Assembly (NCBI GenBank): GCA_024655885.1 | Contig: JANLFN010000013.1 | Location: 1-64,000 of the forward strand | Reading direction: 5' to 3' | DNA length: 64,000 nt | From: Eubacteriales bacterium | GTDB taxonomy: Bacteria; Bacillota; Clostridia; Acetivibrionales; JANLFN01 | In this document: piece after piece, positions 22,692-27,578 of the stretch | Layout: each line of letters begins with the position of its first letter | Position numbering within the stretch: position 1 is the first letter of the stretch | Translations under genes and position numbers: made by a program | Notes under the pieces: generated by a model | The model's database searches: none | Told to the model about the DNA's origin: nothing | What the model saw: the letters and a program-made list of their open reading frames with translations, nothing else

Positions 22692-22777
22692 AAACTACCT
22701 TGCTGTAGTTTGGATACTAGCGCAGACGCTTTCCTGAGGAAGGGATACCCTTCAGACCGGGAAAGCTTTTCTTTTTT
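22692..22777 (+). ncRNA. ANTAR-type leader 1: two hairpins plus intrinsic terminator
   Basis: Hairpin P1 (22692-22711) has stem AAACTAC/GTAGTTT and hexaloop CTTGCT. Hairpin P2 (22719-22730) has stem AGC/GCT and hexaloop GCAGAC. The GCT of P2 is also the start of the terminator stem GCTTTCC/GGAAAGC (22728-22766) with an inner GAAGGG/CCCTTC, followed by TTTTCTTTTTT. Loop position 4 is G in both. This is the layout of ANTAR antitermination targets (EutV, NasR class): stabilising P1/P2 would block the terminator. The usual A at loop position 1 is not present. Confidence 0.7.
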
Positions 22778-22808
22778 ACACAAAGCTTATGAGGGAGGGA
22801 TTCTATGT

Positions 22809-23063
22809 ATGCTTTGCGGTTTAAACAAGACAGGAACCTGTGCTGATTCATAGGGTCTTAAACCATGGTTTGAGGAATTATCATTACCAGTGGCTCCATT
22901 GTGCAATATGATGTGCAATTTCTGCACAAAAGGTAGAGATTGTACTTGCAATGGAAAACTGAAGGGGCTTGGCATTCCCACCATTGCGGAAATGATTAAT
23001 ATCCAGCGGACTGTATCTGGCGTCCTCAATGAGGTGGAAATGAAAATTTTTATTCCATCTTAA
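22809..23063 (+). pseudogene. NifB-like radical SAM N-terminal remnant with in-frame TAG
   Basis: The frame reads MLCGLNKTGTCADS, stop TAG (22851-22853), then GLKPWFEELSLPVAPLCNMM, CNFCTKGRDCTCNGKLKG and ends ...MKIFIPS TAA. The CNMMCNFC motif is the CX3CX2C radical SAM cluster site and the context (SLPVAPLCN) matches NifB (HIPVAPACN in the intact copy). It ends just where NifB continues with the GIAGPGD motif, so most of the barrel is missing. It lies directly behind ANTAR leader 1 and shares its transcript with the ANTAR gene. Confidence 0.6.
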
Positions 23064-23096
23064 CATTCTACACAAATATAATCCGGGGGGATTTGG

Positions 23097-23669
23097 ATGG
23101 AATATGGCAAGTTTATATTATGTGGTGAGGATAAAAAAACATTAGGCAGAATTAAAAATACATTAGCTTCCAATGGACATATCTATGTTGGATATACGAA
23201 ACAGGTATTTGGCCTTCTGCGTCATATAAGGAACTGTACACCGGACCTTGTGATCATTGATGTAAGTAATTGTTTTAAGGATTATAAACCAACATTGGAG
23301 GTAATTGATGAGGAGATCCTGGCAGGCTGTATTTTGATTATGGATTCAAAAAGTGAAGAGGTTTTTAACTTCATTCATGGATCAAGAATCATGAGCTATC
23401 TGACAAAGCCGGTTTATGATGAAATTATTCTCCAAATTGTTGATATATCACTGATGAACTATAAAAGAATCCATGAATATGAACGGAAAGTTAAAAAATT
23501 GAATGAAACGCTGGAAAGCAGGAAAGTTGTGGAAAAGGCAAAATGGATCCTTGTTGAAAAAGAAGGATACTCTGAAGCCGAGGCTTATGAAATCATAAAG
23601 AAAAAGAGCAGGGACAACAGGATTCCGATGCGTGAAATTGCCGAGGCTCTGATTCTAACCCGGGGTTGA
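23097..23669 (+). CDS. ANTAR-domain RNA-binding antiterminator
   Basis: A 190-residue response-regulator-like protein. Residues 1-120 form a receiver-like domain (acidic LCGEDKK near the start, PDLVIIDVS with the likely phospho-acceptor Asp, YLTKP with the conserved Lys). A coiled coil (about 122-145) leads to the C-terminal ANTAR domain: ESRKVVEKAKWILVEKEGYS, then AEAYEIIKKKSRDNRIPMRE and IAEALI. ANTAR proteins bind paired hairpins in leaders and prevent termination. Three such leaders flank this gene, so it is the likely regulator of itself, glnK-amtB and nif. A GGGGGG site precedes the ATG. Confidence 0.92.
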   Translation: MEYGKFILCGEDKKTLGRIKNTLASNGHIYVGYTKQVFGLLRHIRNCTPDLVIIDVSNCFKDYKPTLEVIDEEILAGCILIMDSKSEEVFNFIHGSRIMSYLTKPVYDEIILQIVDISLMNYKRIHEYERKVKKLNETLESRKVVEKAKWILVEKEGYSEAEAYEIIKKKSRDNRIPMREIAEALILTRG

Positions 23670-23769
23670 CCTAAAATGGTACAGAAGTTTAAAAAATAGT
23701 TTAAATGCAATATTGATTAAGTAAAATTGCAAAAAAATATAAAAAAACGGAAATAATAGATAAAAACTA

Positions 23770-23798
23770 TTGCATAAATGCAAGTTTGATGGTATAAT
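23770..23798 (+). promoter_or_regulatory. Promoter of glnK-amtB
   Basis: TTGCAT, 17 bases, then a perfect TATAAT. The -35 matches that of the ANTAR unit. Confidence 0.7.
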
Positions 23799-23828
23799 AA
23801 ATTCAAAAATTGAATATTAAGAAGGTAG

Positions 23829-23917
23829 AGAATTCCAAGCAGAATTTTACACCTTTTCGGCTGTGACGCCAGATACTAGATGGAGATTACTTTCCTTACA
23901 GTATTTGGCGTTTTTTA
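23829..23917 (+). ncRNA. ANTAR-type leader 2 with intrinsic terminator, before glnK
   Basis: P1 (23829-23848): stem AGAATTC/GAATTTT (one G-U), hexaloop CAAGCA, extended by AAGGT/ACCTT outside. P2 (23859-23870): stem GGC/GCC, hexaloop TGTGAC. The terminator stem ACGCCAGATACT/AGTATTTGGCGT (23866-23911) begins inside P2 and ends in a T tract. Both loops have G at position 4. P2 and the terminator cannot form together, as expected for antitermination. Confidence 0.72.
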
Positions 23918-23948
23918 TTAAAAAAAATAAAACGAGGAAGTGAATTCA

Positions 23949-25921: not shown

Positions 25922-26006
25922 GCCCAGGTTATGCCTCCGTGTAAATGAAGCGGAAAAGGACGCGGTTTACTGAGTAAAGGTTTGAGGAATTCTATGACTT
26001 TGTCAA

Positions 26007-26054
26007 GGCTGTGAGTTAAAAAGGCTGCAAACCACTCACAGCCATCCTTTTTTA
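26007..26054 (+). terminator. Intrinsic terminator after amtB
   Basis: GGCTGTGAGT pairs exactly with ACTCACAGCC, followed by ATCCTTTTTT. It closes the glnK-amtB transcript. No paired hexaloop hairpins like those of the ANTAR leaders were seen directly before it. Confidence 0.85.
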
Positions 26055-26059
26055 TAAGT

Positions 26060-26255
26060 TCCCGCAGACCGGGTTTGGAGGGGGGAAATTTCAGAACCTG
26101 AAGGTTTCGGCCTTTATAAGGGCGGCTGCTATTTAAGAGACGAGTTTGAGAGCTCTCTACCGGAGCAGCATGGACACCATATGGATGAAATGTTTTTACA
26201 TTTCTGAATGGCGGGAAATCCGATACGCAATAAAAGAAAACGAATACGGGAGATG
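26060..26255 (+). ncRNA. Structured leader before the DUF1646 gene (candidate Na+ riboswitch)
   Basis: About 200 noncoding bases with several local stems: AAGG/CCTT around TTTCGG (26101-26114 region), GCTGCT/AGCAGC closing a 30-40 base segment (about 26126-26168), and GAAATGT/ACATTTC (about 26187-26204). DUF1646 genes are often preceded by the DUF1646 motif, now known as the Na+-I riboswitch class. I infer this from gene context; I could not check the consensus. Confidence 0.4.
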
Positions 26256-26258
26256 ACA

Positions 26259-27326
26259 ATGGATATGCTCATCGGTTTGATTGTCATATTGTTGTTGACA
26301 TTAACGATGCCTTTCTGCTCAAAACGGGTAGAGCGGAATCTGGAAATATTTATTTTTCTCATGGGATTGGCTGCGGTAATCGTTTCAGGAAGCATATCCC
26401 TGGATTTGATATTTTCTATTTTGCAAAACCATTTGCTCTATTTAATTACCGGTGCGGTTTTCATCACCGGGCTTCTATTCAAATATCAGATTCACAGGAT
26501 TGTGCGCCTGAAGGATGCAGCCTTAAAATATATGCCACCAAAGGTGTTGATATTCCTGGTCATTGTTTTACTGGGATTAGCATCCAGCGTCATTACGGCA
26601 ATCGTTGCTTCGCTTATTCTTGTTGAGATTGTTGGTATTTTGCCTTTGAGCAGAAAAGATAAAATAAGCTTGGACGTCGTCGCATGCTTTTCTATAGGCC
26701 TGGGTGCGGTACTTACGCCGGTGGGGGAACCTCTGGCTACCATTACTACTTCCAGGCTGGATAAGGATTTTTTTTATCTGGCAAGAGAGATAGGGATTTA
26801 TTATATTATTCCGGGAATCCTACTTTTAGGCTTGTTTGGTGCTCTGCTGGTGGGAAGGCAATTTCCAAAGGTTCCCGAAAAAGTCAGCGATGAGGCTGGT
26901 TCCGAGGAAAAGGTGCTCGAAAAAATAATCAGTGATGAAAGCTATGGTCAGATAGCTATGAGAACGGCGAAAATTTTTATTTTCATCATTGCTCTTGAAT
27001 TATTGGGAACCGGTTTTAAACCACTGATAGATGGGTATGTGGTGGGGCTGGACTGCCGCATTTTATACTTTGGAAATATGATTTCCGCTATTCTGGATAA
27101 TGCGACCCTGGCCGCTGCGGAGATAAGTACCAGAATGAATTCCCAGCAAATTCACGCAATTCTCATGGGGCTCCTGATTAGTGGAGGGATGCTCATTCCC
27201 GGGAATATACCTAACATTATCTCGGCAGGGAAGCTGGATATCGGCAGTTATGAATGGGCACGTGTAGGTGTGCCCCTGGGACTGCTGATGATGGCTGTGT
27301 ATTTTATATTTATATTTGCTGTTTAG
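26259..27326 (+). CDS. DUF1646 family membrane transporter
   Basis: A 355-residue protein with about ten membrane helices and an internal duplicated layout: VLIFLVIVLLGLASSVITAI, LGAVLTPVGEPLATITTSRL, and ISAILDNATLAAAEISTRMN, with a GGMLIPGNIPNIISAGKLDI motif. DUF1646 proteins belong to the ion transporter superfamily and are thought to be Na+-linked cation transporters. ATG at 26259 is favoured by CGGGAG upstream; 26253 would overlap that site. Its position between amtB and nifH may mean only shared location, not nitrogen function. Confidence 0.8.
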   Translation: MDMLIGLIVILLLTLTMPFCSKRVERNLEIFIFLMGLAAVIVSGSISLDLIFSILQNHLLYLITGAVFITGLLFKYQIHRIVRLKDAALKYMPPKVLIFLVIVLLGLASSVITAIVASLILVEIVGILPLSRKDKISLDVVACFSIGLGAVLTPVGEPLATITTSRLDKDFFYLAREIGIYYIIPGILLLGLFGALLVGRQFPKVPEKVSDEAGSEEKVLEKIISDESYGQIAMRTAKIFIFIIALELLGTGFKPLIDGYVVGLDCRILYFGNMISAILDNATLAAAEISTRMNSQQIHAILMGLLISGGMLIPGNIPNIISAGKLDIGSYEWARVGVPLGLLMMAVYFIFIFAV

Positions 27327-27445
27327 AGGAGCGCCACCGGTCTGTTTTAAGTTGAGTTGACACTGGTCAGAATACAGGAATGAAGTTTATAAAGAGGTCA
27401 AATTGCAAAAAACAATAAAAATAATGAAAAAACTTTAGAAATATA

Positions 27446-27477
27446 TTGACAATATGAAATTCACGTAGTACTATAAT
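27446..27477 (+). promoter_or_regulatory. Promoter of the nif operon
   Basis: A perfect TTGACA is followed after 17 bases by TACTAT, or after 20 bases by TATAAT. A sigma-A promoter; no GG-N10-GC sigma-54 element is present. Confidence 0.6.
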
Positions 27478-27498
27478 TCATAATTAAATATTGATGTT

Positions 27499-27578
27499 AC
27501 TGAATTCTTTGTCCGAATGAAGTATCAAAAGGCCAGGGCGCCAGAATCTTTTATGATTTTGGTGCCTTTTTGCTTTTT
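27499..27578 (+). ncRNA. ANTAR-type leader 3 with intrinsic terminator, before nifH
   Basis: P1 (27499-27523): ACT-GA-ATTC and GAAT-GA-AGT, a stem with a tandem G-A mismatch, around TTTGTCC (7 bases, G at position 4). P2 (27531-27542): stem GGC/GCC, hexaloop CAGGGC. The terminator GGCGCCAGAATC/GATTTTGGTGCC (27537-27566, two G-U pairs) starts within P2 and ends in CTTTTTGCTTTTT. The P2 core GGC-NNNGNN-GCCAGA is shared with leader 2. Confidence 0.72.

Follow-up and report, generated by a model that had tools for sequence, protein, structure and literature searches.

Three leader RNAs and a probable ANTAR antitermination circuit at a nitrogen-fixation locus of the Acetivibrionales

The window analysed here is a stretch of 64,000 nucleotides from contig JANLFN010000013.1 of a clostridial bacterium of the order Acetivibrionales. 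Its plus strand carries, in this order, a leader (leader 1), a decayed NifB-like gene, the gene of a protein with a receiver and an ANTAR domain (hereafter ANTAR1), leader 2, the PII gene glnK, the ammonium-transporter gene amtB, a DUF1646 transporter gene, leader 3 and the nif operon (Table 1). The two PII-type genes of the nif operon are, by their place, presumably nifI1 and nifI2. Comparisons were made across 58 genomes of the order, the window's included, and labels such as G000 denote individual genomes. A preliminary description had placed the ANTAR gene between leaders 1 and 2; this is correct, with the refinement that the decayed NifB-like gene intervenes after leader 1. Both ends of that gene are preserved, the middle is absent and one in-frame TAG is present. 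An intact NifB-like gene lies between leader 1 and ANTAR1 in four relatives, and in two others a NifB-like gene stands behind a leader-1-type element away from ANTAR1; the G032 copy of this radical-SAM gene resembles NifB at an expect value (E) of 2.4e-40, below the equivalog cut-off. In relatives, the ANTAR1 gene adjoins glnK-amtB, nifH or both.

Table 1. Features of the locus, with their positions in the window
Feature	Position	Strand	Basis
-35-like box of leader 1, ACTTGCAT	22640..22647	+	function putative
Leader 1 P1, 7-bp stem, hexaloop CTTGCT (AAACTAC-CTTGCT-GTAGTTT)	22692..22711	+	read in sequence, fold
Leader 1 P2, AGC-GCAGAC-GCT	22719..22730	+	read in sequence, P2 screen
Leader 1 terminator, overlapping P2 3' strand	22728..22766	+	read in sequence, fold
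Decayed NifB-like radical-SAM gene	22806..23063 (about)	+	alignment with G050, G029, G031, G001
ANTAR1, 190 residues, degenerate receiver and ANTAR domain, Arg172 at the plug-methionine position	23097..23669	+	PF03861 match, alignment, predicted structure
DNA inverted repeat TGCAA-N16-TTGCA, upstream of glnK promoter	23706..23731	+	
Palindrome TTGCATAAATGCAA (TTGCA-N4-TGCAA) at presumed glnK -35	23770..23783	+	by eye
TATAAT of presumed glnK promoter	23793..23798	+	by eye; promoter not listed by scan
Leader 2 P1, 7-bp stem, hexaloop CAAGCA (AGAATTC-CAAGCA-GAATTTT)	23829..23848	+	read in sequence, fold
Leader 2 P2, GGC-TGTGAC-GCC	23859..23870	+	read in sequence, P2 screen
Leader 2 terminator, overlapping P2	23865..23911	+	read in sequence, fold
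glnK (PII protein)	23949..24287	+	PII models, below their equivalog cut-offs; relatives
amtB (ammonium transporter)	24362..25921	+	TIGR00836 above cut-off
Sigma-70-like promoter TTGACA-17-TACTAT of nif operon	27446..27474	+	consensus match only
Leader 3 P1, core ATTC-TTTGTCC-GAAT, seven-base loop with G4	27498..27524	+	read in sequence, fold
Leader 3 P2, GGC-CAGGGC-GCC	27531..27542	+	read in sequence
Leader 3 terminator, 12-bp core (extended to 14 bp by the terminator scan), overlapping P2	27537..27566	+	fold, scan
nif operon: nifH, two PII-type genes, nifD, nifK, nifE, nifN-nifB fusion	27617..36392	+	

When re-read in the sequence, the three leaders had the coordinates and letters first given for them. 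Each consists of the hairpins P1 and P2 followed by a terminator, which uses the 3' strand of P2 as its 5' arm; G stands at loop position 4 (G4) in all six hairpin loops, A stands at loop position 1 (A1) in none, and leaders 2 and 3 share GGC-NNNGNN-GCCAGA, all as the preliminary description had it. The two hairpins of each leader have at least 3 bp and are joined by a linker. The P1 stem of leader 3 is in two parts, with an opposed GA/GA between them. The terminator begins with the 3' strand of P2, so that each leader can form P1 together with either the terminator or P2. The minimum-energy fold is P1 plus terminator in all three, and the lack of P2 from it is expected, since P2 and terminator are mutually exclusive. 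All three leaders are more stable than their shuffles (z of -2.67, -4.04 and -5.46 for leaders 1, 2 and 3). Rfam models at gathering scores found tRNAs and a Na+ riboswitch in the window, with no match at the three leaders.

ANTAR1 orthologues, of at least 53% identity, are present in 15 of the 58 genomes, the window's counted, and leaders of the same build occur in all 15. Leader stretches were taken upstream of ANTAR, glnK and nifH in these carriers, and upstream of nifH in G002; in the four genomes with a NifB-like gene 5' of ANTAR, the stretch before the NifB-like gene was used instead, and the glnK2 stretch of G001, which lies inside a coding region, was left out of the P2 screen. In this screen of 39 stretches from 16 genomes, P2 was picked by stem strength and place only. 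It gave 30 P2 hairpins in 29 stretches, all 30 with G4 and 29 of them scoring at least 8; ten stretches, that of the window's nifH included, gave no P2 at those settings. Among 146 other terminators from the window and 15 related loci, which served as controls, 33 had a P2-like hairpin of score at least 8, eight of these had G4, and one also had a G4-bearing P1.

P1 and P2, on whose conservation in relatives the preliminary description had staked its claim, are indeed conserved. Alignment by eye yielded 40 leaders from 16 genomes (15 of leader-1 type, 12 of glnK type and 13 of nif type), two of them from G002, which lacks ANTAR1, and at least one from each of the 15 ANTAR1 genomes. G4 is found in P2 of all 40. 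P1 was readable in 36 and has G4 in 32 of these, a count made by eye from the loop outwards, which favours long stems and perhaps G4 too; a structure-only screen for P1 gave G4 in 14 of 18 six-base loops of score at least 9 and in all four seven-base loops. The P1 stem is closed by a C-G pair in 34/36, and its second pair shows all four Watson-Crick types. The P2 loop has six bases in every window leader and in 38/40 overall, the two exceptions, with seven bases when read by eye, being the nif-type leaders of G002 and G003, whereas the P1 loop has six bases in 20/36, seven in 12, eight in three and nine in one. In the glnK-type leader of G034, P1 stands far upstream of P2. Aligning P1 across glnK and nif leaders together was abandoned, because the loop of the latter begins one base earlier. 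In leaders of leader-1 type, 8 of the 18 pairs of P1 and terminator have changed on both sides (0/500 shuffles as high), and in the glnK/nif terminator 8 of 13 have (1/500 as high); these shuffle-based figures are inflated by related rows.

Two covariance models, R1 from glnK and nif leaders (16 sequences) and R2 from leader 1 (11 sequences), were run on the 58 genomes with the stricter filters of large searches, by which weak matches may be lost. At E≤0.05 in the window's genome (3.44 Mb), R1 matched leader 2 (23824-23918, E 4.1e-9) and leader 3 (27497-27572, E 1.9e-10), R2 matched leader 1 (22691-22777, E 1.7e-13), each leader being part of its model, and nothing else was found. At E<1e-3, R1 matched 14 of the 15 ANTAR1 genomes, a count biased by its training on such genomes, and 2 of the 43 others (G002 and G019). 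Matches outside the training set fell on nif leaders (G051, G034, G002), on glnK-amtB or amtB (G051, G030 and twice G043, the second at E 0.0034), on NifB-like radical-SAM genes (G030, G032) and on a nifV-like gene pair (G043). The stronger evidence lies in these matches and in the absence elsewhere, rather than in the biased count. Fifteen genomes without ANTAR1 have a nifH at least 78% identical (G002, G011, G014, G015, G017, G019-G027, G035), and R1 matches at nifH only in G002.

ANTAR1 itself scores 68.5 bits against PF03861 (cut-off 27.3). Its AlphaFold2 model has a mean predicted local distance difference test score of 91.5, and its best structural match is EutV bound to RNA (6ww6_B, template-modelling score 0.80), followed by Rv1626 and then AmiR (1qo0_E, 0.75). 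When an ANTAR1 profile was run against 391 genomes drawn from the class, the matches listed above 300 bits came from four genomes (G000, G003, G005, G009), all of this order, the eleven remaining ANTAR1 carriers being absent from the matches listed for that draw; p2 paralogues scored 156 to 197 bits and other ANTAR proteins from 118 bits downward. A scan of genome contigs gave 24 loci, of which 12 are ANTAR1 or part of it (53-67% identity), in Anaerobacterium chartisolvens, Pseudobacteroides cellulosolvens, Acetivibrio alkalicellulosi, a Herbivorax sp. and clostridial or Bacillota bins. Judged by the profile scores, ANTAR1 turned up only within this order in the genomes scanned. Three ANTAR genes are present in the window's genome, namely ANTAR1, p2 beside amtB2-glnK2, and a third behind glnA; the third (G000:C23, 7122-9079 of its region) lies directly 3' of a type I glutamine synthetase gene. 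In a tree of 75 sequences, 15 ANTAR1 and 18 p2 sequences form sister groups (support 100/98 and 99/98; joint branch 100/100). It is therefore likely, on this tree, that ANTAR1 and p2 arose by duplication in or before the ancestor of the order.

The two paralogues differ at a residue that matters in EutV. According to the EutV work (PMC8934654), Met172 sits in the RNA loop and M172A abolished RNA binding, while the sole base contact is G4 and A1 is thought to stop pairing across the loop. Residue 172 is Arg in all 15 ANTAR1 sequences and Met in 59 of 64 others, p2 included; Met172 is thus typical but not defining of ANTAR proteins, five of those 64 being without it, one of them the partial ANTAR1 copy of G001. 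The residues that hold G4 in EutV are kept, with R142, K149 and E160 in 15/15 ANTAR1 sequences and Y164 in 13/15 (F in two). In the receiver, residue 10 of the pocket is Gly in 15/15, where EutV has Asp, and the phosphoacceptor residue 55 is D in eight (the window's protein among them), E in six and S in one. By these residues the ANTAR1 receiver is degenerate, i.e., it lacks the usual acidic pocket across orthologues.

Loop position 1 is less uniform than G4. Across the 40 aligned leaders, A1 occurs in P1 in 3/36 and in P2 in 8/40. In glnK and nif leaders, P2 position 1 is C or T in 24/25 and A in 1/25, whereas in leader-1 P2 it is A in seven, G in seven and T in one of 15. The absence of A1 from the loops that had been described is accordingly exact for the window, but in relatives it is, as aligned, a property of P1 and of glnK/nif P2, not of leader-1 P2. 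A pyrimidine at position 1 does not hold as a clean rule for ANTAR1 targets, since leader-1 P2 has a purine in 14/15. Positions 1 and 5 of the loop could pair by Watson-Crick rules in 17/25 glnK/nif P2 and in 1/15 leader-1 P2. The idea of such a cross-pair is weakened in that position 5 follows the terminator arm, and T1-A5 and C1-G5 track the split between glnK and nif leaders. The idea that the protein reads position 5 in these leaders was dropped, since A5 and G5 change with the 3' arm of the terminator (A-U in eight, G-C in eight).

For comparison, 16 p2 regions were surveyed, which gave 10 leader stretches at amtB2 or glnK2 (nine relatives and the window's genome). A sequence pattern with an unconstrained loop found P2 in 9/10, all nine with G4 and with A (five) or G (four) at position 1; the amtB2/glnK2 leader of G028 had no P2 by this pattern. 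For P1, six of the nine leaders with P2 offer only a C-NNNGNN-G match without a clean stem, with the loops AATGGT (twice), AATGAT, AGTGAT, TATGGT and AAAGTT, and in the window's genome also ACAGAT farther away. Fisher's test on five of these P1 loops, picked by eye, gave 0.0016, a value that is illustrative only. In the sequences compared, purine-1 loops accompany the paralogue with Met172, and pyrimidine-1 loops mostly accompany the one with Arg172, apart from leader-1 P2. This correlation spans a single duplication and proves no code.

The leaders, the exclusivity of P2 and terminator, the conservation, the co-occurrence, the protein family and the residue changes are all read from sequence. 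On these grounds, we consider it probable that ANTAR1 acts by antitermination as a positive regulator of a small nitrogen regulon, made up of its own unit, glnK-amtB and nif, and thereby reinforces itself. The promoters, ANTAR1 binding, antitermination, signal and partner that we infer are as follows. The three units would start from sigma-70-like promoters, and by default transcription would end at the intrinsic terminator of each leader. Under nitrogen shortage, the active ANTAR1 dimer would grip P1 and then P2 through the flipped-out G4. With P2 held in this way, its 3' strand would be unavailable to the terminator and the polymerase would read through. The signal to ANTAR1 would more likely come from a partner protein than from a kinase, because the receiver lacks the usual acidic pocket across orthologues. 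AmiC acts as such a partner protein for AmiR, and the first candidates here may be the PII proteins of the same cluster, which has three PII-type genes.

A number of observations weigh against this reading. First, leaders and ANTAR1 do not coincide in every genome. The ANTAR1 carrier G003 is missed by R1; G002 has both glnK- and nif-type leaders before nifH (829500-831500 of C9), with no ANTAR1 found and no remnant nearby; G016, which lacks ANTAR1, has an R2 match before a transporter gene (E 8.8e-7); and weak R1 or R2 matches (E 0.0008 to 0.05) occur in G012, G019, G020, G022, G025, G035 and G048, also without ANTAR1. Second, not all leaders are complete. P1 is without G4 in 4/36 (the glnK-type leaders of G009 and G002, the nif-type leaders of G029 and G043) and unreadable in 4/40 (leader 1 of G055, G003 and G009, and the nif leader of G034), and the P2 screen found no P2 before nifH in G055. 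Third, a simple terminator scan of 22560-27640 gave 6 terminator-like sites against 4.0 in shuffles and picked up only that of leader 3 among the three, those of leaders 1 and 2 being missed because their apical parts are longer than the scan allows. Fourth, P2 loop positions 4-6 lie inside the 5' arm of the terminator, in which the partner of G4 is C or U. An A at P2 position 4 would also be able to pair with U, yet it occurs in 0/40 leaders, and 32/36 P1 loops, which lie outside the terminator, carry G4 as well. Finally, RNA binding by ANTAR1 cannot be carried over by analogy, because Arg replaces the methionine whose mutation abolishes binding in EutV, and the window's ANTAR1 retains Asp55.

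Some of these points bear on which ANTAR protein serves the leaders. It is conceivable, though in our judgement unlikely, that they are true ANTAR targets served by p2 or by the third ANTAR behind glnA, and that ANTAR1 has another role. The genome does hold three ANTAR genes, G002 has glnK and nif leaders without ANTAR1, ANTAR1 lacks the methionine needed by EutV, and leader-1 P2 is mostly purine-1, like the leader beside p2. However, R1 matches track ANTAR1 in the counts given above, genomes with p2 but without ANTAR1 (G011, G012, G016, G033, G038) give no R1 match at E≤0.05, and the ANTAR gene that adjoins nif is ANTAR1. For the earlier proposal that one ANTAR protein controls all three units, PF03861 membership and co-occurrence with the leaders speak in favor, while the two further ANTAR genes speak against, and binding is predicted only.

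A DNA-level layer is also suggested by the sequence. Of the three promoters, that of nif has the support of the promoter scan as a sigma-70-like site; the other two, at glnK and leader 1, were placed by eye. The scan counted 17 promoter-like sites in the stretch where shuffles gave 13.8, i.e., no enrichment. The repeat TGCAA-N16-TTGCA is present in 8/12 glnK-type, 2/13 nif-type and 2/15 leader-1 stretches. Across the 40 stretches, the offset from TGCAA to a following TTGCA is 21 in twelve cases, whereas no other value from 5 to 60 occurs more than twice. Six glnK-type stretches have a further downstream TTGCA at 42, 42, 43, 43, 32 or 23 bp, in steps of about ten bp, and one of the six has a second box at 51. 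TTGCA, as a box where a -35 element would stand, lies at most 120 bases upstream of P2 in 14/15 leader-1 stretches (at varying distance), 9/12 glnK-type and 6/13 nif-type stretches. A DNA-binding regulator acting at TGCAA-N16-TTGCA is therefore likely as a further layer at the level of initiation, which again tells against a circuit run by ANTAR1 only. We think it very improbable that control lies mainly there, through a protein bound at this repeat and the -35 palindrome, with the leader hairpins as minor attenuators. The window's genome has ten exact repeats. One is at glnK, another precedes a GltB-type class-II amidotransferase gene, as such a regulator might have it, and a third precedes a biotin carboxylase gene; the rest are at no recognisable nitrogen gene. 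Moreover, the exact repeat is absent at 11/13 nif-type leaders, the window's included, where P2 and terminator remain, so that the repeat suits a partner layer rather than an alternative. A reversed-pattern control (1 place versus 10) is not counted as proof here, since the pattern, once reversed, contains CG.

The preliminary description had also held that nif is controlled without NifA or sigma-54. No -24/-12-like site (≤2 mismatches) was found between 21158 and 31417, NifA itself not being searched for, but the window's genome encodes a sigma-54 DNA-binding domain. That the leaders are ordinary terminators with chance hairpins is scarcely credible: P2 has only three pairs in most of them and the simple terminator scan shows no enrichment relative to shuffles, but G4 and the stems are conserved, control terminators have G4 in 8/33, and R1 and R2 are specific genome-wide.

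Antitermination by ANTAR1 would belong to a known kind of control. In 2012, Ramesh and co-workers predicted ANTAR elements at nitrogenase, PII and amt genes (PMC3369931); the preliminary description had likewise noted predictions of ANTAR control for nitrogen genes in clostridia. The regulons predicted there for Pelobacter carbinolicus (nitrogenase) and Desulfotomaculum acetoxidans (nitrogen metabolism) have such elements before nitrogenase units, and PII and ammonium transporter genes were found elsewhere in that search, as here; those elements differ in having been found with an A1/G4 seed. Among the closest described systems is that of EutV and the eut leaders of Enterococcus faecalis, which has the same dual hairpin before a terminator sharing the P2 3' strand, G4 in both loops (PMC3369931, PMC8934654), and a receiver-ANTAR protein of the same fold with most of the RNA-contact residues (PMC8934654). 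It differs in having A1 in both loops, the Met172 plug and a phosphorylated receiver, where ANTAR1 and its leaders have mostly no A1, Arg172, a degenerate receiver and P1 loops of 6 to 9 bases. AmiR-AmiC of Pseudomonas aeruginosa, a structural match, likewise has an ANTAR protein with a pseudo-receiver, whereas the targets here are nitrogen-fixation genes; RNAs selected in vitro with NasR share the C-G closing pair and G4 but differ by their preference for A1 (both PMC7496416). An ANTAR gene is also present in the ammonia-assimilation cluster of Clostridium thermocellum (PMC4676874), and a further paper, PMC8164766, likewise ranks among the nearest to ANTAR control of nif in this order.

We class the window RNAs as a variant of the canonical dual-hairpin ANTAR target, not as a canonical member (Ramesh 2012), because A1, a defining feature of the latter, fails. 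The departures of ANTAR1 and of the RNA loops from the known type may be linked. Within the literature searched, no earlier description was found of a circuit of three such leaders in this order, of an ANTAR subfamily with Arg172 or of the lack of A1 that is paired with it; the kind of control was already known. No paper among the literature matches listed treats ANTAR control of nif in this order; supplements and subscription papers lay outside the scope, so that absence in print is not established.

If the proposed circuit is correct, nitrogen fixation in an order of clostridia is under RNA-level control by one identifiable protein. The order would also supply, in nature, two sister ANTAR proteins with different residues at a site that EutV needs for binding the loop, and their presumed targets differ at A1, a conserved loop base of unexplained role; the roles of A1 and of the methionine plug are therefore directly testable by swapping. 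More tentatively, and with less than even confidence, we suggest that the duplication left one cell with two sister ANTAR proteins, each reading its own kind of loop. The Met172 protein p2 would read purine-1/G4 loops at amtB2-glnK2, and the Arg172 protein ANTAR1 pyrimidine-1/G4 loops at glnK-amtB and nif, perhaps cross-paired between positions 1 and 5. Leader 1, with its mostly pyrimidine-1 P1 and purine-1 P2, would be a hybrid read by both, such that p2, through its general control of ammonium genes, primes the regulator of nif.

Further features of the window concern the neighboring genes. The DUF1646 transporter gene (26208-27326) sits between amtB and nif, and in G001 between ammonium genes; the Na+ riboswitch (RF03071) is at 46067-46122 on the minus strand, apart from this gene. 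The open reading frame at 33711-36392 matches NifN/NifK-type models at its start, NifB in its middle and NifX at its end. Homocitrate synthase is seemingly split between open reading frames at 36774-37829 and 37772-38662, of which the one with the C-terminal match comes first.

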